IMG/VR virus record: IMGVR_UViG_3300017613_001540
Location: 1-55,233 of that record
DNA from: a virus
Reading direction: 5' to 3' (one strand)
Length of the DNA stretch: 55,233 nucleotides
How positions within the stretch are numbered: position 1 is the stretch's first letter; each line of letters begins with the position of its first letter. The notes below the pieces were generated by a model. That model had not been told where the DNA came from. It saw only the letters and a list, made by a program, of their open reading frames with translations, and did no database searches. Both the position numbers and the translations under genes were made by a program. Positions 3,465-45,429 of this stretch are shown here, one piece after another.

Positions 3465-5472
3465 TTATGCGCTGCACTTGATGATGAAGATTGCAAAGAC
3501 GCAGAGGGGCCTGTCTCTTCGAGAAGAAGAAGTGCTGTCTCTGTTGGTGAAGTCGGTGCCACTGATAGAGCTGGAAGACGGAGGAGTGTTCCGACTGTCA
3601 GACCTGAAGGGTTTCATACAGAATTTCCAGAGAGCCGTTGAACAGAAAGACTCAAGCTGGCTGATGCAGAAGAGAGGCAGAAGGTGGAAGGTGCCGGACA
3701 TCGAAGAGTTTGCAGAGTCACCGGAGTATATGAACCAGAGGGGTTATCTAAGGCCGGTGATCAAGTATGAATTGCAAAGACTGTTTGGTGGTGGAGAATT
3801 TGTAGAAGCTGTACTGACAGGAGCAATTGGAATAGGCAAGAATTATTTCGCAGACATTGCACTGGCGTACATGATATGTAAGCTTTCGTGTTATCACAAT
3901 CCGCAGATTGAGTATGGGCTTGCTCCGGGCTCCTCGATTGTTTTTATCTTACAGTCCAAGACTGCAACGCTTGCACAGAAAGTCGCGTTTGAGCAGTTCG
4001 CAGCAAGACTCAAAAGATCACCGTATTTCCAGAAGCTATTCCCGTTCGATCCACAGGTCAAGTCAGAGCTAAGATTTCCGAAACAGATAAACGTTTACCC
4101 GATTGGAGGCTCGGACACGTCCGCCCTTGGTATGAACGTATATGGAGGGATGATCGATGAGATGAACTATATGGAACGTGTTGTTGATAGTACGTACACG
4201 CGCCATACTGGTGAAGAAGAGTACGATCAGGCAGAAAGACTGTATAACACGTTGATAAATCGTATGAGGTCAAGGTTCATGCAGCAAGGAAGGCTGCCAG
4301 GAAAGTTGCTGCTTGTTTCGTCGAGAAGTTACCCAGGCGATTTTACGGACAGGAAGATGGACGAAGCCGCAACTGATCCGTCGATATTTGTGATGAACTA
4401 TGCCCAATGGGAGGCGCTGCCTGCTGACAGATTTTGTGGAGACAAGTTTTTAGTAGAGGTAGGGAATGAATATAAACAGTCGCGCATTGTTGCAACGAGG
4501 GAAGATGCAAAAGATGCAGATGATGTTATTGAAGTTCCGACTGAGTACAGACCAGCTTTTGAAAGAAACCTTGATGACGCACTGAGGGATCTCGGTGGTA
4601 TAGCAGCCGGAACTAAGCACCCATTTATCCCACATAAGGAGCTGATAGTCAAGGCATACGAGACGTATGAGGCTACTGTGGGAGAAGGCAATCAACTCTT
4701 TCTTCATGACGAAGTAGTCATACAGGATATTCTACCGCCCGAAGAAGCTTATAGCCAAGATTTCTGGAGGCTGGTGAACCGCGAATATCTCGAAGAAATG
4801 ATTCTGGACAAGAGTACAGTTTTTGCTGCGCACATAGACGTCGGATTAACTGGAGATGCAGCAGGGGTAGGCATTGGCAGAATTACGGGTTACAGACTGT
4901 TGCCAAACATGCGTGTGTACAATGAAAGAACGAAGGAGTTCGTCGAAGTATCGGATGCACGTGCTCCGATGTACACGATTGACGGAGTACTGCGGTGTAT
5001 TGCAGAGCCTGGTGATGAAGTCGACTTGGAGGCGATCCGAGACCTGATCCTGTTCCTGCGAGGCCACCTGTTCGTAAGATGGGCAACGATGGACTCGTAC
5101 CAGTCAGCCATGATGATACAGGCGTTCAGGAAGGCGCGAATGAGATCCGGAGTATTATCGGTCGACACGAGCATAGCCCCGTACACTGAAGTGAAACTGG
5201 CGATCAAGGATGAACGCATACTGTATCCGAACCATCCGGTCCTGACGACAGAGTTAAGGACGGTGGAACGAGATAAGAAGAAGGATAAAATTGATCACCC
5301 GAAAGGAGGGAGCAAGGACTGTGCAGACTCGGTTGCTGGTGTGGTGTATATGCTAATGCAGAAGGAGGCCAGATTTGGAAGGCCAGCGCGGAGGCGCACA
5401 AGGACACGACCGAAAAGCACTGGAGTCAGGTCTGTTAAGATTGGCAGAAGAAGGAAGTCAAGAATGGTTTAG
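3433..5472 (+). CDS. terL: Terminase large subunit (ATPase and nuclease)
   Basis: 679 residues. The ATPase domain has a Walker A loop GAIGIGKN (about 130-137) and a Walker B GGMIDEMNYME (about 238-248). The C-terminal RNase H-like nuclease domain shows HIDVGLTGDAAG (about 467-478), a middle acidic strand VRWATMDSYQS and a final DCADSVAG motif (about 628-635). The protein cuts concatemeric DNA and pumps it into the prohead. The Walker A lysine is followed by Asn instead of Thr or Ser, which is seen in some phage terminases. A small gene and a thymidylate synthase follow instead of a portal. Confidence 0.95.
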   Translation: MAETLQIVKADYALHLMMKIAKTQRGLSLREEEVLSLLVKSVPLIELEDGGVFRLSDLKGFIQNFQRAVEQKDSSWLMQKRGRRWKVPDIEEFAESPEYMNQRGYLRPVIKYELQRLFGGGEFVEAVLTGAIGIGKNYFADIALAYMICKLSCYHNPQIEYGLAPGSSIVFILQSKTATLAQKVAFEQFAARLKRSPYFQKLFPFDPQVKSELRFPKQINVYPIGGSDTSALGMNVYGGMIDEMNYMERVVDSTYTRHTGEEEYDQAERLYNTLINRMRSRFMQQGRLPGKLLLVSSRSYPGDFTDRKMDEAATDPSIFVMNYAQWEALPADRFCGDKFLVEVGNEYKQSRIVATREDAKDADDVIEVPTEYRPAFERNLDDALRDLGGIAAGTKHPFIPHKELIVKAYETYEATVGEGNQLFLHDEVVIQDILPPEEAYSQDFWRLVNREYLEEMILDKSTVFAAHIDVGLTGDAAGVGIGRITGYRLLPNMRVYNERTKEFVEVSDARAPMYTIDGVLRCIAEPGDEVDLEAIRDLILFLRGHLFVRWATMDSYQSAMMIQAFRKARMRSGVLSVDTSIAPYTEVKLAIKDERILYPNHPVLTTELRTVERDKKKDKIDHPKGGSKDCADSVAGVVYMLMQKEARFGRPARRRTRTRPKSTGVRSVKIGRRRKSRMV

Positions 5473-8190: not shown

Positions 8191-8201
8191 AAGGGCACCG
8201 T

Positions 8202-8217
8202 TTGCAAGCGATTGCAA
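8202..8217. promoter_or_regulatory. Operator-like palindrome (variant copy)
   Basis: TTGCAAGCGATTGCAA differs from the dispersed palindrome by one base in the right half. It lies 12 bases after the stop of the 8002-8190 gene. Confidence 0.55.
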
Positions 8218-8704
8218 CGCTGAATAAGCGGGCCATGACGAATACCTCTCCCCATAAGCGTCACGCACCATAACAATACGGGCCGTATGCGGGGCGTCAG
8301 AGGAAGGACGTAAAAGAGCCATTTAACACCCTACCTATATGCGGGGTTGGAGAAAGCACCCCATGTATAAGAGTAATGAATCAATAGCTGCCCATACCAC
8401 AGACCACCCTATATGAAGACCCGAGAACGTCAAATACAAACGTACCCGATAACGCATTATATGTACCCAACGTCACGCCCCTACGAATTCCCCTAAAAGT
8501 TTATAGTCATCGGTATACGTAAAAACGTATAGCCAAAACGCAAGTATAAAAAATAATATCAAATACTTACGCACCAAACGAAGAATGGAGTAAGTCATAT
8601 CAGTCACCCCTATGTATACCCACCCCACTAATTGGCGAGATACGATAAGACTCGTATAAGCTATATAGATAACATACCTACCAATAAGAACGCTAAGTAC
8701 GTCG

Positions 8705-8752
8705 TAATCGTAAACATTAAGCTAAAGCTTATCGTAAACGTAAAGCTAAACG
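8705..8752. repeat. Hexamer-phased degenerate repeat (about 8 units)
   Basis: Eight consecutive hexamers TAATCG, TAAACA, TTAAGC, TAAAGC, TTATCG, TAAACG, TAAAGC, TAAACG follow the pattern T(A/T)A(A/T)SS with one exception (TAAACA). The run lies inside the gene-free region. It could be a set of protein-binding repeats or an unwinding element. Confidence 0.5.
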
Positions 8753-9091
8753 TCCAAGTATCGTCTAATAAGAATAACGGTAAACGTTAGAACGAACGTA
8801 CCGTATGCCAACGCCAATACAACGCTAACCAAACGCACCAACCAACGAACACCCCCACCAGGACAACAGCAGAGGTAGAGCAGAGCCCATCGATGTATTT
8901 ACATGCATGATTGGAGACGTCAAGTCATTCGAGTTAAGTTAGTTCGTAAAATGTCAGTATGTCGCTGTTACGCTGTTAGATACGTTGTCTCATGTTACCA
9001 TGCTGGAGAAGTAACCGTGTAGCCATCGTGTCAAGTTGGAGTCGCACATGCTATGATCGTAAGTAAATAGTCAGAGCAGGGCAAGGGCACT

Positions 9092-9115
9092 CCCCCCTCC
9101 CCCCTATCCCCACCC
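9092..9115 (-). other. G-quadruplex-type motif on the minus strand
   Basis: The + strand has C6-T-C6-TAT-C4-A-C3. The minus strand therefore carries four G tracts with loops of one to three bases, fitting the usual G4 motif (and an i-motif on the + strand). Confidence 0.6.
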
Positions 9116-9261
9116 TCCGCACGAAAAAGTCTACAAGCAGTGATGCCAAATGCAGATCCAGTACCACTACAGTCAGTTTCCGTCTCGGGCGCGCGGGACC
9201 AAGTACGACTGTGTTATGAGTCGACGAATCCGTTGCGGTGTAAACTTTTGAGGGACGGAAA

Positions 9262-9346
9262 TTGGTGTGGAGTGGTGTGGTGTGGTGTGGACCGGATTGG
9301 ACTGTTATGACCCGGACTGATCTGGTGTTATGAGGGATGCGGAAAT
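9262..9346 (+). repeat. Pentamer-phased NNNGG repeat
   Basis: Read in steps of five, the sequence is ATTGG TGTGG AGTGG TGTGG and so on, including three tandem TGTGG units, then ACCGG ATTGG, with weaker units (CCCGG, TCTGG, TGAGG) to about 9346. It ends just upstream of the promoter at 9360. It resembles in step size the larger array at 15852-16644. Confidence 0.55.
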
Positions 9347-9359
9347 CCACGGAAATAAC

Positions 9360-9387
9360 TTGACATAAGATGGTGATGTGATATAAT
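9360..9387 (+). promoter_or_regulatory. Sigma-70 promoter with extended -10
   Basis: A perfect TTGACA (9360-9365) and a perfect TATAAT (9382-9387) are separated by 16 bases. TGA directly before TATAAT gives an extended -10. It drives the gene at 9414, whose AAAGGAGG follows. Confidence 0.9.
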
Positions 9388-9413
9388 TAATTTAAAAATT
9401 AAAGGAGGTTGTC

Positions 9414-9815: not shown

Positions 9816-9848
9816 TACGCAGTATTCAAGGAAAACTACGGAAAACAC

Positions 9849-9877
9849 TTGACATAAGGCGGGTTGTGTGTTATAAT
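9849..9877 (+). promoter_or_regulatory. Sigma-70 promoter
   Basis: TTGACA (9849-9854) and TATAAT (9872-9877) are both perfect with a 17-base spacer. The first downstream gene begins at 9901. It probably starts the long run of small genes to 15854. Confidence 0.9.
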
Positions 9878-9900
9878 AAAAATAAAAACAAGGAATGAAG

Positions 9901-14801: not shown

Positions 14802-15040
14802 ATGACGTGATAGCACCGATAGACGAGTTCGTACCGAAGGAGACCAAAGAGCTGAAGAGTGTAGAGACGGTGGAGTACTCGCTCTGTGTGTTCCAATGCA
14901 GTTGTGGTTTTCACATAGGGCTGGATGCCTCGTATCTCGACGCGGTTGATGATATCCAAGTGCCGTGTCCGAACTGCAAGGTGGTGATAGATACGGCGAA
15001 AATAGAAGAAGGAGGCGGAAATGGCAAAGAAGAAAGATGA
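14798..15040 (+). CDS. Zinc-ribbon protein
   Basis: 80 residues, ATGA overlap, AGGAGG upstream. CSCGFHIG and CPNCK lie about 24 residues apart with two beta strands between, a clear ribbon. Overlaps the next gene by 20 bases. Confidence 0.65.
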   Translation: MNDVIAPIDEFVPKETKELKSVETVEYSLCVFQCSCGFHIGLDASYLDAVDDIQVPCPNCKVVIDTAKIEEGGGNGKEER

Positions 15041-15674
15041 GAAATTGGCATTATGGGCAAGGTACAAGGTGAAGATGCGTTTTAATTACAGGCTCTGTGG
15101 TTCAGTCCCGCAGTCGAAACAGATTGTTCCGTTGTGGCTTCAGTCACGAATGCCGAAGAAGAAGCCTGATGACGCAAAGCCGATCGAGGAGATAGAAAAG
15201 GAAGTACAGGACTCGATCGAAGATACCGTGGAGCGCACGACGCTCGGGTTTCAGATGGATGATGTCGGGCTCTGGGTCAGGGGAGGAACGATCAAAGCCC
15301 ACCTGAAAGACTGTGCGAACCAGATCAAGGATGTTTTGAAGATCAAGGCATTCAAGTCGAAAGTAGCGAATATGGTGTATCTCGAAGATTACAAGGTCTA
15401 CCTGATAAAAGGGAAGAGCAAGGCCTTTAGAGAACCTGACGGTTCGTACGAACAGCCGGTTCATATCATGACGAGGCAGGGGCCGAGGAATGCACTGAAA
15501 GTTATCAACTATGTGGAGAAGCCATCGTTTGAGTTCGTGCTGCTTTTGATGGACCACAAGGAAGTGACGTTCAAGAATCTTCAGGCCATTTTTGAATATG
15601 GCTCGGTTCATGGGTATGGCGGAGAGCGTGGTATGGGTGAAGGCAGGTACAAGTTCACGATCAAGAAAATGTAG
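15021..15674 (+). CDS. Conserved phage-type protein with C-terminal Gly-rich loop
   Basis: 217 residues, start after GAAGGAGG. The sequence has a WVRGGTIKAHLKDC segment, a VANMVYLEDYKVYL strand pair, a MTRQGPRNALKVINYVEKP stretch and a C-terminal VHGYGGERGMGEGRYKF. The glycine-rich end resembles the G-rich loop of RAMP-type ferredoxin folds (Cas5/Cas6/Cas7-like), but that is only a visual likeness. No CRISPR array or other cas gene is present. Function unknown. Confidence 0.65.
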   Translation: MAKKKDEKLALWARYKVKMRFNYRLCGSVPQSKQIVPLWLQSRMPKKKPDDAKPIEEIEKEVQDSIEDTVERTTLGFQMDDVGLWVRGGTIKAHLKDCANQIKDVLKIKAFKSKVANMVYLEDYKVYLIKGKSKAFREPDGSYEQPVHIMTRQGPRNALKVINYVEKPSFEFVLLLMDHKEVTFKNLQAIFEYGSVHGYGGERGMGEGRYKFTIKKM

Positions 15675-15680
15675 GTTGAA

Positions 15681-15854
15681 ATGAAAGATAAGATATTCAG
15701 CTTCAGTGTAACAAAGGAAGGAGATTCAGTAATACAGACCGGCAGACTTGAAAATCTCCAGTCGTTGTATTTCAGCCACTATACGAAAGCGCTTGAATTC
15801 TTACGAGAACGATGTGAAGAATTTGTCGACGAGAACTGTGTTGATCCGAGCTGA
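15681..15854 (+). CDS. Small hypothetical protein ending in the array
   Basis: 57 residues with an AGG a few bases upstream of ATG. Beta N-terminus (KIFSFSVTKEGDSVIQTG) and a helical C-terminus. Its TGA stop (15852-15854) is the first three bases of the first TGACGACGAG unit of the repeat array. Confidence 0.6.
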   Translation: MKDKIFSFSVTKEGDSVIQTGRLENLQSLYFSHYTKALEFLRERCEEFVDENCVDPS

Positions 15855-16644
15855 CGACGAGAAATGAGTTGGTCTCATGTGCGTTGGTCTGACATGACGA
15901 CGAGTACTGCGATGTTAAGGATTGATCTGACGACGAGGAGCGAGCTGGATGGCAATGTCATGACTTGGCTTCGAGAAATGACATGATCAGCATTGTAGTG
16001 ACGACGAGTAGTGGTATGGTTGGAGATGAATTGTACTTATGTGCCATGACGCCGAGTGGTGATGTGAGTGGTTGCGGTATGTTGAGGTATGAGATGACGC
16101 CGAGTAGTGGAATGCATGGCTTTGAAACGATATGACGACGAGTATTGGTCCGAAGGGGAGGAATTGTAGTGACGCCGAGTACTGGGCTGTATTGTAGTGG
16201 CAGTGACTTCGAGCAATGTATTGATGTGTTATGTTCTGACGACGAGCAATGATATGTTGCGAGCGGCTGTGAGTTGTAACGCAGCGGATTGACGTCGAGG
16301 CCCGTATTGTAATGCATGGTGTTGTAACGGCGACGAGAAATGAAGCGGACGTGGATAGGCTGTGGCATGTGATGCCTTCGAGAATTGTAATGACGGGAAG
16401 CGACTTGACGACGAGTTGTGATTTGACAAGGGATGATTTGACGACGAGTTGTGCAGCGATTTGGGCGAGAATGATTTGTGGTGGCGACGAGCCTTGATTT
16501 GGAAGGTCCTGATTTGTACTGGCTGCGAGGAGCGTGGTGCAATGGCCTGTGGAGTGGTGTTTTGACGACGAGAGTTGGCAGGATGAGAGATTGGCGTGCG
16601 ATGACGTCGAGAATTGATTTGTAATGTGTTGTAGCGGCGACGAG
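15852..16644 (+). repeat. Punctuated pentamer array, (NNNTG)n-ACGACGAG, about 21 units
   Basis: The punctuation word ACG(A/C/T)CGAG, or a degenerate form ending CGAG, recurs with its last G at 15861, 15904, 15937, 15975, 16008, 16056, 16104, 16142, 16179, 16213, 16246, 16299, 16337, 16382, 16415, 16448, 16491, 16529, 16572, 16611 and 16644. Sixteen of the 20 spacings are 33, 38, 43, 48 or 53; the other four (37, 34, 45, 39) are one or two bases off. Between punctuations the sequence falls into pentamers mostly ending in TG or another N-G, for example CAATG TATTG ATGTG TTATG TTCTG at 16214-16238. No + strand gene fits and pentamers cannot keep a codon frame. Function unknown. Confidence 0.9.
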
Positions 16645-16683: not shown

Positions 16684-16872
16684 ATGCAAAAAATAAAGAT
16701 AGAGATCGACAAGTGGTTGAAGGACACGAGAATGGTATATTGCATGGCTTCAGACTGTGAGAGTTTTGACCATCGGAGTTTCGTGTGTGGTTTAAAGGAA
16801 GTGGAGATTGGAGAAGACGGCAAGTGTATGTCTTACAAACCGAAGAAGAAGGAGACGGAAGATGTTGCATAG
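16684..16872 (+). CDS. DUF1540-like cysteine protein
   Basis: 62 residues after AGGAGAAAGG. Cysteines in CMASDCESFDHRSFVCG and GKCMSY follow the C-x4-C...C...C spacing of small DUF1540-type metal-binding proteins. First gene after the repeat array; overlaps the next gene by 11 bases. Confidence 0.6.
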   Translation: MQKIKIEIDKWLKDTRMVYCMASDCESFDHRSFVCGLKEVEIGEDGKCMSYKPKKKETEDVA

Positions 16873-41500: not shown

Positions 41501-41776
41501 CGAGGGATTCAGAAACGATTGTATCCGAAGGAAATGTTTTCAATGCTTAAGGTTCCAAGAGTTATGGTACCGACTCCACAGTATGCATATGCTGAGGGAG
41601 GGCAGGTGACTGGGAGTGCGGCAGCGCCGACTGGTGAAGAAAGCAGAGCTATAACTATCGTGAATGTGCTTGATACCAGTGAGTTTGACGCTTATCTGGC
41701 GACACCGGCTGGAGCAGATTCCGTGCTGAATATAATCAGCTCAAATCAGGATAGAATAAGGAGATTTGAGAAGTGA
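38519..41776 (+). CDS. Tail tape measure protein
   Basis: 1085 residues. Residues about 100-330 are a TP901-type tape measure core: FERQMSRVEAVTTGAIGNMD, LEAKAKELGRTTEFTAEQVG, MQYLGYAGLE, then NTNVAQLADALKYAG and the SIAGTSLRGVLASLADPTPK segment. Hydrophobic helices lie around 400-500. A long Glu/Lys/Ala coiled coil (about 540-870) follows and then more hydrophobic segments (about 900-950). By the usual 1.5 A per residue, the tail would be about 160 nm. Overlaps the next gene by 4 bases. Confidence 0.93.
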   Translation: MAKDVQLRLLIEAYDNAGRALTDVSQKLRTIGSEADRTNAKTRRMGSEGAAAVSKFESALTSLQAKFTQVGASADKLLSVGTQLATAGAAFGAVSFFPIKSAADFERQMSRVEAVTTGAIGNMDALEAKAKELGRTTEFTAEQVGEGMQYLGYAGLEVGQVLESIRPALNLAAAGEVEVGDAANWATNIMTAFGLEVSDLSHIMDVMAYTASNSNTNVAQLADALKYAGNISRTAKVPFEDVAAFLGVLAKNGLSASIAGTSLRGVLASLADPTPKVAKALEDLGVEVSRTTDGGIALSKTLADIGAAEPDVTKFFQIFRRLAAGAGSALAESTLEVADFTDALTGPRALGAAEKMRKVIQDNLVGAVKLLISAIVGFMIEAGEPLLVTLADMTKSLATVFSGMAAWVKENPKLTTTLLKVSAALAALLIGLGAIAVPLALVTKAFAVIGGTFATLLLRIPQLIGLFKSLGVMIASVTAAGGLLSAAFPIATILATTTAVYKATQAYLGMSDALKEAADARERLLEQSKMLAEKYKDYVDVAIPDDLKEKTKADLQELVSNLRKSIVALRSMREQWVETAKETEGIEAIPTAAALKAQEAIRGITEKLEERQKALGLVSQELQGLADIEAKQGAAAAKSAKDQADAEAKRLEEARARAEAEKELLAEVEEYRLENILEGLAKITAEREKELEEFRSNLSKKVQGTEAAKAMEAAIHAKYDKQITDFNKAEAEKVFQNQQQLAQAELQLLESTNKQKLTYLKKQLDANEITMQQYYDEAVLMIQAEGQKQIDALKAQLEMVPDAEKPRIMIDIELAEQDIALRLQELNELIEQAHITRAEAAKTAADDEIAENKRIADAEKSIFEERTSAMGQMATDFGALYEATGSKRKEFLIAQKAAAIAETIMSTYSAAQKAYAAFVELPIIGPALGIAAAAAAVAAGLARVELIRRQSVAEGGEIGGRSPHAKADNIPIWATAKEWMMPVASAMYYGADVMRGIQKRLYPKEMFSMLKVPRVMVPTPQYAYAEGGQVTGSAAAPTGEESRAITIVNVLDTSEFDAYLATPAGADSVLNIISSNQDRIRRFEK

Positions 41777-44700
41777 TAATAAATGATATCCTGACTTTGC
41801 CCCCGAACTGGAGCGCATCAGTGTACCTTGAAAGGTACTGGAAGACTGGGATACAGACGTCGATTGTAGGGAATGAGATACGAAGTGCTCTGTTTACGTA
41901 CCCACGTAAGTCATTGCAGTTTCGTGTGAATCCTTTCACATCGGCGGAGTCGGCGTTGTTGAAACGTGTGTTGTACCAGCGAATTCATCAGGTAGTAGGA
42001 GTTCCGTTTTGGATGGATCGCACGACACTGACTGCGCAGGCTGCCTCTGGGCAGAAGATCCTCCAGGTCGGGGCGACTGAGTACCGGAATTTTGAGGTCG
42101 GCGCTCCTTGCCTTATCTGGGGATCGTTTTCTTCGTATGAATATGGAGAGATAGCTTCGATAGCTGCGACTCAGATTACGCTGGTTGATAATCTTGCTGC
42201 GACTTGGGCACTTGGCTCAAGCGTATATCCGGTGTTACAAGGAAGGTTTGATTGGCAGCAGCAGACGCGTAGGCTGACCAGTGCAATTGGAGAGTTCAGC
42301 CTTAATGTGGAAGAAGCTTTTGATGTTGATATAGTTAAAGAATATTTAGGGGTGAATGAGTTCCCCCTTCACCAAGGGTTCCCGGTTATGGATATGGAGC
42401 CAAACTGGAGAGACGGGCTGAAGGAAGTCATTGCCCGACCTTATGACATCTGGAGCTTCCTTGGAAAAGAAACGGTAGACTTCTCGTATCTCGAAAGTTT
42501 GACAGGGATTGAGGCAAAGTACACGTTCGGCAGCAAGGCGGAGTTGTACGAACTGATCAAGTTTTTCGACTTTGTGCGTGGAAAATGGAAGAAGTTTTAT
42601 TTTCCGTCGTGGCAGAGAGATATTGAGGTGACATCAGCTGTTGGTGCAGCAGACTCGATTATTGACATTGAGGACATAGACTGGGATACGTACTGGGATT
42701 TAGGATATGAGGTCGGACCGGCTGGAAGTAATATTTTCTTGTTTGCTCCGGACGGAACGAAGGTTACGAGAAATATTCTCAGTGCTCCAACGCCAACGTC
42801 GTTGCAGCTCAGCGGGCCGACTGGGTTTAACTGTACTGCGGAAGAACTTGGATATCTGCTTGCATCGCTCATGCCGATCTCAAGGTTTGCAGACGACACG
42901 CTCAGAATTGAATATCTAACAGAGGACGTGTCCGAGGTGACGCTAAGAACAACCTCGATCCCACGCATCGATACGCGCGGACCAACAACGACGACCACCA
43001 CTTCAACGACTACGACCAGCACGACTACGACCAGCACGACGACTACGTCGACGACCTCAACTTCGACCAGTACGACCTCGACTTCGACCACGTCCACGTC
43101 GACAACGTCCACGACGATGACTTCGACGTCCACCACATCGACGACCGTCACAGAATCCACCACGTCGTCATCGACCACGACCAGCACCACATCGACGTCC
43201 ACGACCAGCTCGACCACCAGTACGACTGTCTCGACGACCAGCACGACCAGCACCACGTCGACCACTTCCACGTCTACCTCGACTTCGACCACGACCAGTA
43301 CTACCTCGTCGACCACGAGCACGACGGTCACCCAGACGACGACCTCGACTTCCACTTCGTCCACGTCATCGACCACAACGTCGTCCAGCACCACGACGAG
43401 CACAACGAGCACGACCACATCGAGCACGTCGTCGACGACCACTACGACGGTGGCTCAAGGACAGTGGCTCGGTGACTGGGCAAACAGGATTGAGCTTGAA
43501 GTCGATAATACGAATGTAGATTCGAACCTGTCTGACTTCCCGGTTCTGATCTACCTGTCATCTTCGTCTGGGATCACGAGCAAAGACGTCACGGATGTTT
43601 TTGACAAGCTGGCTTCTGACGCTAATCGATTTAAAATTGCAGTGACAGAATGTGATGGGCTGAGTCAGTGTCACGTAGAAATAGAGCGTTGGGTGGATGC
43701 CGACGAGGATGCATGGTTATGGGTCAAGGTTCCGAGTGTTTATGCTGGAACTACCACGACGTTGTATTTATATTATGATTCAGCCCAGCTTAAAAATTAT
43801 GATTACGTAGGGGACACTGACGGACATCAAATTTCTATGGTGGTGGATCTCTCTTCCGAAGGTACGTATGACACCACACACATACTAAGACCGCATGTCT
43901 TAAAAGAAGACGACGGCACTTACAAGATGTGGTATGGCGGATTTGATGGCTCAGATTATAGAATTATTTACTGCGATTCTGAAGATGGGTTATCGTGGTC
44001 GAATTTTGAAATGGTTGTAGACATCGGAGATGAAGGTACTTATGACACTGACAGAGCACTTGATCCTTGGGTAATTAAAGATGGCTCAACTTATAAAATG
44101 TGGTATCAAGGATATGATGGTTCTAATAATAGAGTAATTTATTGCGATTCATCTGATGGTAAAACTTGGTCAAACCATGAGATGGTTGTAGATCTTTCGG
44201 ATGAAGGAACATACGATACTGATTCCGCAGGGTGCTGTGCTGTTATCAAAGACGGCGCAACTTACAAGATGTGGTACTCAGGAAAGAATGCAGTGGTGAA
44301 TTACTCTATAATTTACTGCACGTCGTCTGACGGAAAGAGTTGGACAGGTCACACCCTTTGCTTTAAAGAAGGAGCCGAAGGAACATACGATTCGCAACGT
44401 TCTCAATGGCCTTGTGTTATTAAAGATGGCTCCACATATAAGCTGTGGTATGGAGGGTTTAACGGTTCTAACTGGAGAATCCTTTACTGTGCTTCGGCTA
44501 ATGGAACGAGTTGGTCAAGTCATCAGCTTTCGCTCGATATAAATTCACTTCCTTTGGTTGACTGGAATGGAGTTGTACGACCGACAGTTGTTAAGGACAC
44601 TGATCGATATGAGATGTGGTATTCTGGAAATGCTGGCCCTTATAGAGGGTGTCATACACATTCATTTGACGGAATTGAATGGCTTGCCAGAACGTGCGAA

Positions 44701-45429
44701 CAGGTCTGGGATGATGATTTTATCTTGGTCTGCCACATGGCACAAGACCCGAGTTCGGGAGCGGCAGATTTTATAAAAGACTCGACGCGGAATGAGAATC
44801 ATGGTCAAGCAACGGCAGGTATGACAAGTGCAGATTTGGTAGACGGAGCAATAGGAAAAGCGATTGACTTTGACGGGTCTGGGGATTGGATTGACCATGG
44901 TGACGACTCGTCGTTGGATATGGATGACGATTATACTCTGGAAGCCATAATAGAAGGAATTACTCCCGGTGTGAACATGATCGTCGTTGGTAGGTATAAT
45001 GATGGGGCGGCTGATGGTTTCTGCCTTTACTATCAAACGACATCAAATAAGATTGCTGCGGTTCACATGGATTCAGGCACTTATAATTTCGTATTAACCT
45101 TGCTTGGACACACGTCAGGATATCAGCACATAGCTGGAACGTTTGAAGCTGGGGTTGGTAGCGAACTGTGGAGAAATGGAGTTTCACAGGGTACAGACAA
45201 CACCCAGACAAGTGCTCTTGATACACATACGCAGGACTTTAGAATAGGTGCACAGGACGACTTAGGAAACGAAAGGGAGTATGCTGGTGAGCTTGATGAA
45301 ATAAGACTCTCAAAAATCGTTCGAGCTGATGAATGGATTAAAGCAACCTATTACAGTAATGACGATGCGTTGATCACGTTCTCAGATCCAGCTTACTCGA
45401 CAACCACGACTACAACCACCACGACGTAG
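41773..45429 (+). CDS. Giant distal tail/adhesin fusion protein
   Basis: 1218 residues. Residues 1-404 look like a distal tail component (FRVNPFTSAESALLKRVLYQ, FDFVRGKWKKFYFPSWQRDI; DUF2460-like place in the order). Residues about 405-559 are a Thr/Ser tract. About 565-685 fit DUF2341 (WANRIELEVDN, VLIYLSSSSGI, LWVKVPS). About 688-975 contain five or six YKMWYGGFDGS-type repeats with SWSN, as in five-bladed glycosidase-like propellers. About 980-1205 are a LamG/concanavalin fold (GKAIDFDGSGDWIDHGDDSS, LDEIRLSKIVR). Nine Thr end the chain. The C-terminal domains are typical sugar-binding units, so receptor binding is likely. Confidence 0.85.
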   Translation: MIINDILTLPPNWSASVYLERYWKTGIQTSIVGNEIRSALFTYPRKSLQFRVNPFTSAESALLKRVLYQRIHQVVGVPFWMDRTTLTAQAASGQKILQVGATEYRNFEVGAPCLIWGSFSSYEYGEIASIAATQITLVDNLAATWALGSSVYPVLQGRFDWQQQTRRLTSAIGEFSLNVEEAFDVDIVKEYLGVNEFPLHQGFPVMDMEPNWRDGLKEVIARPYDIWSFLGKETVDFSYLESLTGIEAKYTFGSKAELYELIKFFDFVRGKWKKFYFPSWQRDIEVTSAVGAADSIIDIEDIDWDTYWDLGYEVGPAGSNIFLFAPDGTKVTRNILSAPTPTSLQLSGPTGFNCTAEELGYLLASLMPISRFADDTLRIEYLTEDVSEVTLRTTSIPRIDTRGPTTTTTTSTTTTSTTTTSTTTTSTTSTSTSTTSTSTTSTSTTSTTMTSTSTTSTTVTESTTSSSTTTSTTSTSTTSSTTSTTVSTTSTTSTTSTTSTSTSTSTTTSTTSSTTSTTVTQTTTSTSTSSTSSTTTSSSTTTSTTSTTTSSTSSTTTTTVAQGQWLGDWANRIELEVDNTNVDSNLSDFPVLIYLSSSSGITSKDVTDVFDKLASDANRFKIAVTECDGLSQCHVEIERWVDADEDAWLWVKVPSVYAGTTTTLYLYYDSAQLKNYDYVGDTDGHQISMVVDLSSEGTYDTTHILRPHVLKEDDGTYKMWYGGFDGSDYRIIYCDSEDGLSWSNFEMVVDIGDEGTYDTDRALDPWVIKDGSTYKMWYQGYDGSNNRVIYCDSSDGKTWSNHEMVVDLSDEGTYDTDSAGCCAVIKDGATYKMWYSGKNAVVNYSIIYCTSSDGKSWTGHTLCFKEGAEGTYDSQRSQWPCVIKDGSTYKLWYGGFNGSNWRILYCASANGTSWSSHQLSLDINSLPLVDWNGVVRPTVVKDTDRYEMWYSGNAGPYRGCHTHSFDGIEWLARTCEQVWDDDFILVCHMAQDPSSGAADFIKDSTRNENHGQATAGMTSADLVDGAIGKAIDFDGSGDWIDHGDDSSLDMDDDYTLEAIIEGITPGVNMIVVGRYNDGAADGFCLYYQTTSNKIAAVHMDSGTYNFVLTLLGHTSGYQHIAGTFEAGVGSELWRNGVSQGTDNTQTSALDTHTQDFRIGAQDDLGNEREYAGELDEIRLSKIVRADEWIKATYYSNDDALITFSDPAYSTTTTTTTTT
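42985..43449 (+). repeat. Long Thr/Ser-coding low-complexity tract
   Basis: About 155 codons, nearly all Thr (ACG, ACC, ACT, ACA) and Ser (TCG, TCC, AGC, AGT), with rare Val, Met, Gln and Glu. The codons vary, so this is not a simple nucleotide microsatellite. It joins the distal tail domain to the adhesin domains. Confidence 0.9.

Follow-up and report, generated by a model that had tools for sequence, protein, structure and literature searches.

The phage sequence analyzed here, referred to as the window (IMG/VR record IMGVR_UViG_3300017613_001540; 55,233 nucleotides), very probably carries an RNA-guided system of the VIPR type, in which a non-coding array of phased pentamers and the RAMP gene upstream of it are directed at the genes of rival phages. 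VIPR was described in a preprint of April 2026 (bioRxiv 2026.04.26.720920 v2; PMC13142463) as a phage RAMP protein (Vipr) together with vrRNA, i.e., RNAs made of GGY/NN (YNNGG) pentamers that are used against rival phages and that, in each step, read two bases of DNA and skip one, which generally is the codon wobble position. An initial annotation of the window had declared that no element of this kind was described, a statement that the preprint overturns; besides this preprint, a literature search by title found no paper treating such a system. The kind itself has accordingly been known since 2026, and what is new here are the fixed letters and the short units. That the window system works like VIPR is well supported, and it looks like a variant with its own fixed letters, short punctuated guides, and no structured tail, the guides most likely being used to recognize genes of rival phages.

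The array extends from about 15826 to about 16669 on the plus strand, slightly beyond the interval of 15852-16644 first assigned to it, and consists of about 22 guide-like units of the form GAG-(NNgYG)n-NCKNC, as parsed at the punctuation marks and by the phase of TG. Between 15841 and 16680, 50 pairs of TG lie five bases apart versus 18.0 ± 3.7 when the sequence is shuffled with its dinucleotides preserved (0 of 1000 shuffles reach 50), and the lag-5 peak anticipated in the initial annotation is thereby borne out. TG-TG lags of 10 and 15 are also raised, as are those of 18, 23, and 28, the latter because the punctuation shifts the phase by 13. Parsing the window at the consensus NCKNC-GAG (e.g., CGACGAG at 15855-15861, plus strand) yields 22 marks and 21 units, 17 of which keep the five-base step, in line with the phased units and off-phase minority reported earlier; within these 17 units, TG ends 75 of 104 pentamers. 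Unit spacings of 33, 38, 43, and 48 are directly visible. The first unit has its GAG at 15831 and overlaps an ORF of 57 aa at its 3′ end; the final pentamers reach approximately 16669, directly followed by what is probably the ribosome-binding site of the following ORF. Two long ORFs cover the array on the minus strand and look like a by-product of its CA-rich complement; minus-strand coding across the array was rejected on this account and because unit lengths are not multiples of 3, which upholds the earlier view that the array is non-coding. The array RNA shows no excess of structure (folding z +0.82, with 15 of 20 shuffles folding at least equally well), and Rfam at the gathering threshold returned tRNA only. 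Over the 14.4 kb compared, the sole indel between the window and a near-identical contig lies at about 16131, within the array unit that begins at 16102.

Pooled over the in-phase units of the window and its relatives (n = 1635; L128, L156, L147, and L183 left out), the pentamers read NN-g-Y-G: G occupies position 5 in 98% and position 3 in 50% of the pentamers, position 4 has T in 87% with C in a further 9%, and the first two positions are nearly even, with about 25% of each base. The initial annotation had given the pentamers as mostly NNNTG, which is explained by position 3 being nearly free in the window's own array. Positions 4 and 5 are partly favored by the search because most arrays were found with TG-containing patterns, the free positions being unaffected; TG-phased arrays also lie behind loci found through the protein, which therefore speaks against a mere search effect. 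When units shorter than 30 nt and the loci L133 and L175 are left out, 191 of 209 parsed units contain five to nine pentamers. Across 287 units from all arrays, the free bases are interdependent (N1N2 association, z 8.0), and N2 and N3 are likewise associated (z 19.7). In the same units, base 3 is tied to the two free bases of the next pentamer, with z values of 4.0 and 4.5. Overall, the repeats look built for a protein that steps along them.

Upstream of the array (15021-15674, plus strand) lies a gene for a putative Vipr-like RAMP protein of 217 aa with a Gly-rich loop, HGYGGERGMGEGRY. Judged by its AlphaFold2 model (pLDDT 86), this protein has the fold of CRISPR RAMPs: the best 50 of 1053 Foldseek matches are all CRISPR effector chains, and so are the 50 matches listed by VIA (best Z 13.0, over 166 residues at 5.2 Å), the matched chains listed including Csm3, type VII, Cmr, and Cas7-11. 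Sequence comparisons returned little: the protein matched no family in PHROG, Pfam, or PADLOC, and there was no match in a sequence profile search of the PDB and one sub-threshold Csm4 match in NCBIfam (E 0.036). Homologues lie upstream of the arrays of relatives. Across 23 sequences, the Gly-rich loop motif YG..HG....R..G.GRY is invariant and accounts for 10 of the 16 residues that never vary. The 57-aa ORF between the RAMP gene and the array (15681-15854, plus strand), whose end overlaps the first unit, is possibly an accessory gene, a role that the vap genes have in VIPR. It has no PHROG or Pfam match; related small ORFs occupy the same place in 14 loci, and a scan of three such ORFs, the window's included, found no family match. 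On the other side of the array, a 62-aa ORF (16684-16872, plus strand) with a sub-threshold match to DUF1540 is an operon neighbor that starts 14 bases past the array.

Array and RAMP gene go together when approached from either side. A first pattern scan of IMG/VR gave at least 119 stretches, and four of the contigs concerned were picked up by the phase detector, the same frame being filled there with different letters; conservation of phase and not of letters is what the initial annotation had proposed to look for in related phages. A stricter pattern gave 52 stretches, after which the phase detector flagged 36 of 175 loci, a set that contains the window's contig twice as well as some other duplicates. 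By phmmer, 27 of these 36 array loci carry a RAMP homologue. In all but one of 24 loci, counted with duplicates and doubtful loci taken out (L128, L133, L175, L129, L183, and L147), the RAMP gene ends at most 250 bases before the array or overlaps the array's detected start. The remaining nine of the 36, in which phmmer detected no RAMP gene, include four with the array at the edge of the stretch, two doubtful arrays (L147 and L183), and three that are unexplained (L063, L162, and L169). Starting instead from the protein, a profile of the 217-aa sequence found 45 viral loci in IMG/VR, 42 of which have a phased array, in some cases a short one, within 2.5 kb downstream on the same strand; an opposite-strand signal in one of the 45 loci is the array detector's sole control. 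Of the three loci without an array, L229 has only 212 bases downstream, and L208 and L209 show none. On newly met contigs the array is present in 17 of 20 loci, or in at most 14 of 17 distinct ones, since L230-L233 share an identical 901-bp region. L133, L175, L140, and L129 were dropped from one further count. It is thus the RAMP gene directly upstream that recurs as the array's neighbor, and the earlier tie to RNase HI is not supported.

Near-identical contigs carry identical arrays. In three pairs of relatives (L127/L130, L158/L167, and L037/L153), the vipr region is 77-84% identical, and the arrays are alike in weak, scattered pieces (62-79%) or give no match. A scan of cellular genomes produced 8 stretches versus 7-8 expected from an even base composition, and the only cellular stretch to pass the array detector, L183, was rejected as accidental-looking by eye. 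Extra phased blocks occur upstream of, or several kb from, the main array in L230-L233, L206, and L236. In the Microcystis phage Mae-JY09 (L241:4720-5140), the region behind a distant RAMP homologue is C-rich and shows a weak step of five bases (CC at lag 5, 31 versus 23.4 ± 4.0, a value reached by 40 of 1000 shuffles).

Targets were sought with the 228 of 287 units that have six or more pentamers, in 4.16 Mb of DNA (overlaps included), with two pentamer-order shuffles per unit (456) as controls. Nine reading rules were applied (NNx, NNN0, NN0, NNxx, NNxxx, xNN, NxN, NNNx, and NNNxx), and the first test, which leaves out L133 and L175, also used the full sequence. E-values are per unit, with 228 units tried; identical units alone were dropped, and near-duplicates (e.g., L152 and L175) remain. 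Under NNx, i.e., with two bases read and one skipped, four of the 228 units reach E<1e-3 versus none of the 456 shuffles (best shuffle 0.01), and under NN0, NNxx, NNxxx, xNN, NxN, and NNNx no unit of the 228 does so in the 4.16 Mb. A unit of the L206 array matches the vipr gene at the Gly-loop peptide HGYAGERSDG with 20 of 20 read bases, and an exact search placed its pattern in 5 of 48 phage records. Two units of the L225 array, which lies on the same contig as L037, match the 3′ end of major capsid genes at 19/20 each, the target of L225:3767 extending into the stop codon, and a unit of L152 matches a protease-capsid fusion at 19/20. PHROGs confirmed the target protein families of all four. 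The skipped base is codon position 3 in 4/4 of these best matches; vipr is read in sense and the capsid genes in antisense, and both strands therefore occur. The capsid relatives were fetched after two capsid matches had been seen at 18/20 (E 0.01 each), and for this reason the rise to 19/20 is not independent; before these relatives were added, two units (L206 and L152) were below 1e-3. By eye, the single mismatch of L225 units 3530 and 3767 and of L152 unit 12744 always falls in pentamer 7 of 10, for which no special composition was found.

Among 202 vipr, capsid, and terminase genes defined by tblastn, 31 of them with internal stops, only two units reach E<0.01 under NNx versus 0.2 in shuffles, and eight reach E<0.1 versus 6.2; five of the top 5 matches and 7 of the top 10 are in frame, compared with fractions of 0.24 and 0.22 in shuffles. 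The L152 capsid target is absent from the matches in this set. With a gene set defined by longest open frames, three units fall below 1e-3 under NNx versus none in shuffles and two of the top five are in frame, a frame count that was set aside because both L225 capsid matches had been assigned wrong overlapping frames. A unit of L037 matches L149 and L234 at 16/16 (E 8e-4) and was not counted because a stricter unit parser later left it out. The best NNNxx match (L168 to L238) was discarded as an array matching an unmasked array, with skipped bases that are also repeat-like, and an integrase match (L155 unit to L285; 15/16, E 0.095) is not claimed. The vipr gene of L206 itself (3898-3927) encodes the same peptide, HGYAGERSDG, with other Arg and Ser codons, and the guide matches it at 17/20; this mismatch to its own gene, a single case, may be due to chance, since the score is 17/20 as well for L171, a different phage that encodes this peptide. 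For the window's own guides, the best match in the first target test was 16/18 (E 0.07), with shuffles reaching 0.0055, and under NNx the six units that are long and regular enough gave a best E of 2.2. The 18-base pattern of the window's nine-pentamer unit, searched exactly in IMG/VR, was found in one contig, in a Gly-rich gene and out of codon frame.

A different reading rule, in which three contiguous bases are read per pentamer with no skip, is unlikely. Under NNN0, whose geometry is the same as that of NNx, four units fall below 1e-3 and ten below 1e-2 versus 0 and 1.5 in shuffles, eight units fall below 1e-2 versus 2.6 in a capsid and vipr set, and N3 is associated with its neighbors on both sides (N2N3, z 19.7; N3 with the next N1, z 4.0). 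However, base 3 agrees with the target at 17/40 positions in the four clear targets and is therefore probably not read, and in the 202-gene set its agreement in the top five is 0.43 versus 0.40 in controls. It is also quite improbable that the same protein and RNA form a scaffold or sponge, with the RAMP coating an RNA whose free letters carry no information. The association of protein and array and the phase alone would fit such an arrangement, as would the absence of targets among the tested units of the window; in other arrays, however, four units match capsid or vipr genes under NNx with 0/456 shuffles doing so, two of these come from one array and match one gene family, and the first free base is associated with the second (N1N2, z 8.0). 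The first proposals, which for the five-base step named a ring protein like TRAP acting with a regulatory RNA or else a site for replication or partition, are scarcely credible. TRAP (the trp RNA-binding attenuation protein), which binds RNA at a step of about five bases, has another fold and other fixed letters, whereas the partner here has a predicted RAMP fold, Pfam gave no match for it up to E 0.1, and many other phages likewise have the array behind a RAMP gene. No sign of an origin or partition site was found. What probably survives of that proposal is a protein that makes one contact with the RNA every five bases.

Under the preferred reading of a VIPR-type system, the array would be transcribed together with the operon genes, as its strand suggests, and its RNA may be cut or used as units, mostly of 33-58 nt. 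From the predicted fold and the VIPR paper (PMC13142463), Vipr subunits would be expected to align on such a unit, one per pentamer, each gripping the fixed gYG and leaving the free pair of bases accessible. The NN pairs would then be matched to DNA, the presumed target, with one target base skipped per step; with one skip per NN pair, the target would therefore repeat every 3 bases, and the skipped base would come to lie on codon position 3, as it does in the four best matches of relatives' arrays. The targets would be the major capsid protein and vipr genes of other phages, going by the matches of relatives' arrays, and the likely effect would be repression of the rival phage, as has been shown for VIPR elsewhere (PMC13142463).

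Several features are held in common with VIPR (PMC13142463), namely a single phage-encoded RAMP of about 20 kDa with a Gly-rich loop (217 aa in the window), neighboring non-coding repeats of pentamers in which two bases are hypervariable and the others fixed, a one-base-skip target rule at the wobble position (here for the guides of three other arrays), and targets in phage genes, other vipr genes included, on both strands. The fixed letters differ, being GGY there and gYG here with only YG strong, although these letters alone do not exclude membership because the paper, which distinguishes seven types, allows a related pentamer consensus besides GGY/NN (PMC13142463). Type II VIPR as characterized has 9-16 repeats, whereas the units here mostly have 5-9 pentamers; characterized VIPR RNAs have an invariable structured 3′ tail, whereas the units here run head to tail with an 8-nt NCKNC-GAG mark; and the VIPR of phage SUSP1 has four RNAs of ~100 nt that flank its genes on both sides, unlike the window (PMC13142463). 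In SUSP1, GGTNN tracts lie beside the gene taken as its Vipr. Comparison of profiles for the window family and the SUSP1 Vipr gave a colinear and weak match over 123 columns (probability 28%, E 6e-4, one comparison), and the models of both proteins (pLDDT 67 for SUSP1) pick Csm3- and type VII-like chains. The window system may represent a separate VIPR type, a tentative proposal whose chances are put at somewhat below even. Such a type would be defined by a gYG/NN code, by guides that lack a tail, are mostly 33-58 nt long, and follow one another head to tail with NCKNC-GAG as their only mark, by its occurrence in phages of many metagenomes, by the use of these guides against the capsid and vipr genes of rivals, and by an own vipr that escapes its own guide through synonymous codons (L206).

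The Cas7 family of Class 1 CRISPR systems (Csm3, type VII Cas7, Cmr4, and Cas7-11) shares the RAMP fold with the window protein, the model aligning with such chains over 128-179 residues at Z 10.4-13.0 among the 50 matches listed. These systems differ in having a 6-nt step versus 5 nt here, and the window lacks CRISPR repeats. Direct repeats with spacers were not found in it, the sole recurrent piece being the 8-nt mark, and Pfam and PADLOC detected no other Cas family in the few neighboring proteins scanned. TIGR-Tas differs from the window system in both protein family and array layout. Shared with it are phage-borne guide arrays that work with one protein (PMC12045711).

If these interpretations are correct, the gapped pentamer code of VIPR needs neither GGY nor a structured tail, and the range of RNA features that the RAMP must recognize becomes narrower. 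Short punctuated guides would also stand nearer to the layout of CRISPR arrays and would bear on the origin of the latter. Finally, such arrays may name the rivals of uncultivated phages and would then be usable to read who competes with whom.

The window contains further repetitive features. A second TG-phased block (9248-9343, plus strand), with 10 of 12 pentamers in phase and no GAG punctuation, has the highest value in the window scan and is possibly one long guide. A near-identical contig of 99.8 kb ends inside this block, and upstream of it, at 8200-9240, about 1 kb is devoid of plus-strand ORFs of at least 80 aa and contains CGTAAA/AACG-like runs. The stretches 9341-9398 and 9830-9888 are 78% identical, and by eye each has a promoter-like TTGACA...TATAAT. 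Farther downstream, a run of 15- and 21-base repeats lies at 42983-43428, within the ORF at 41773-45429.
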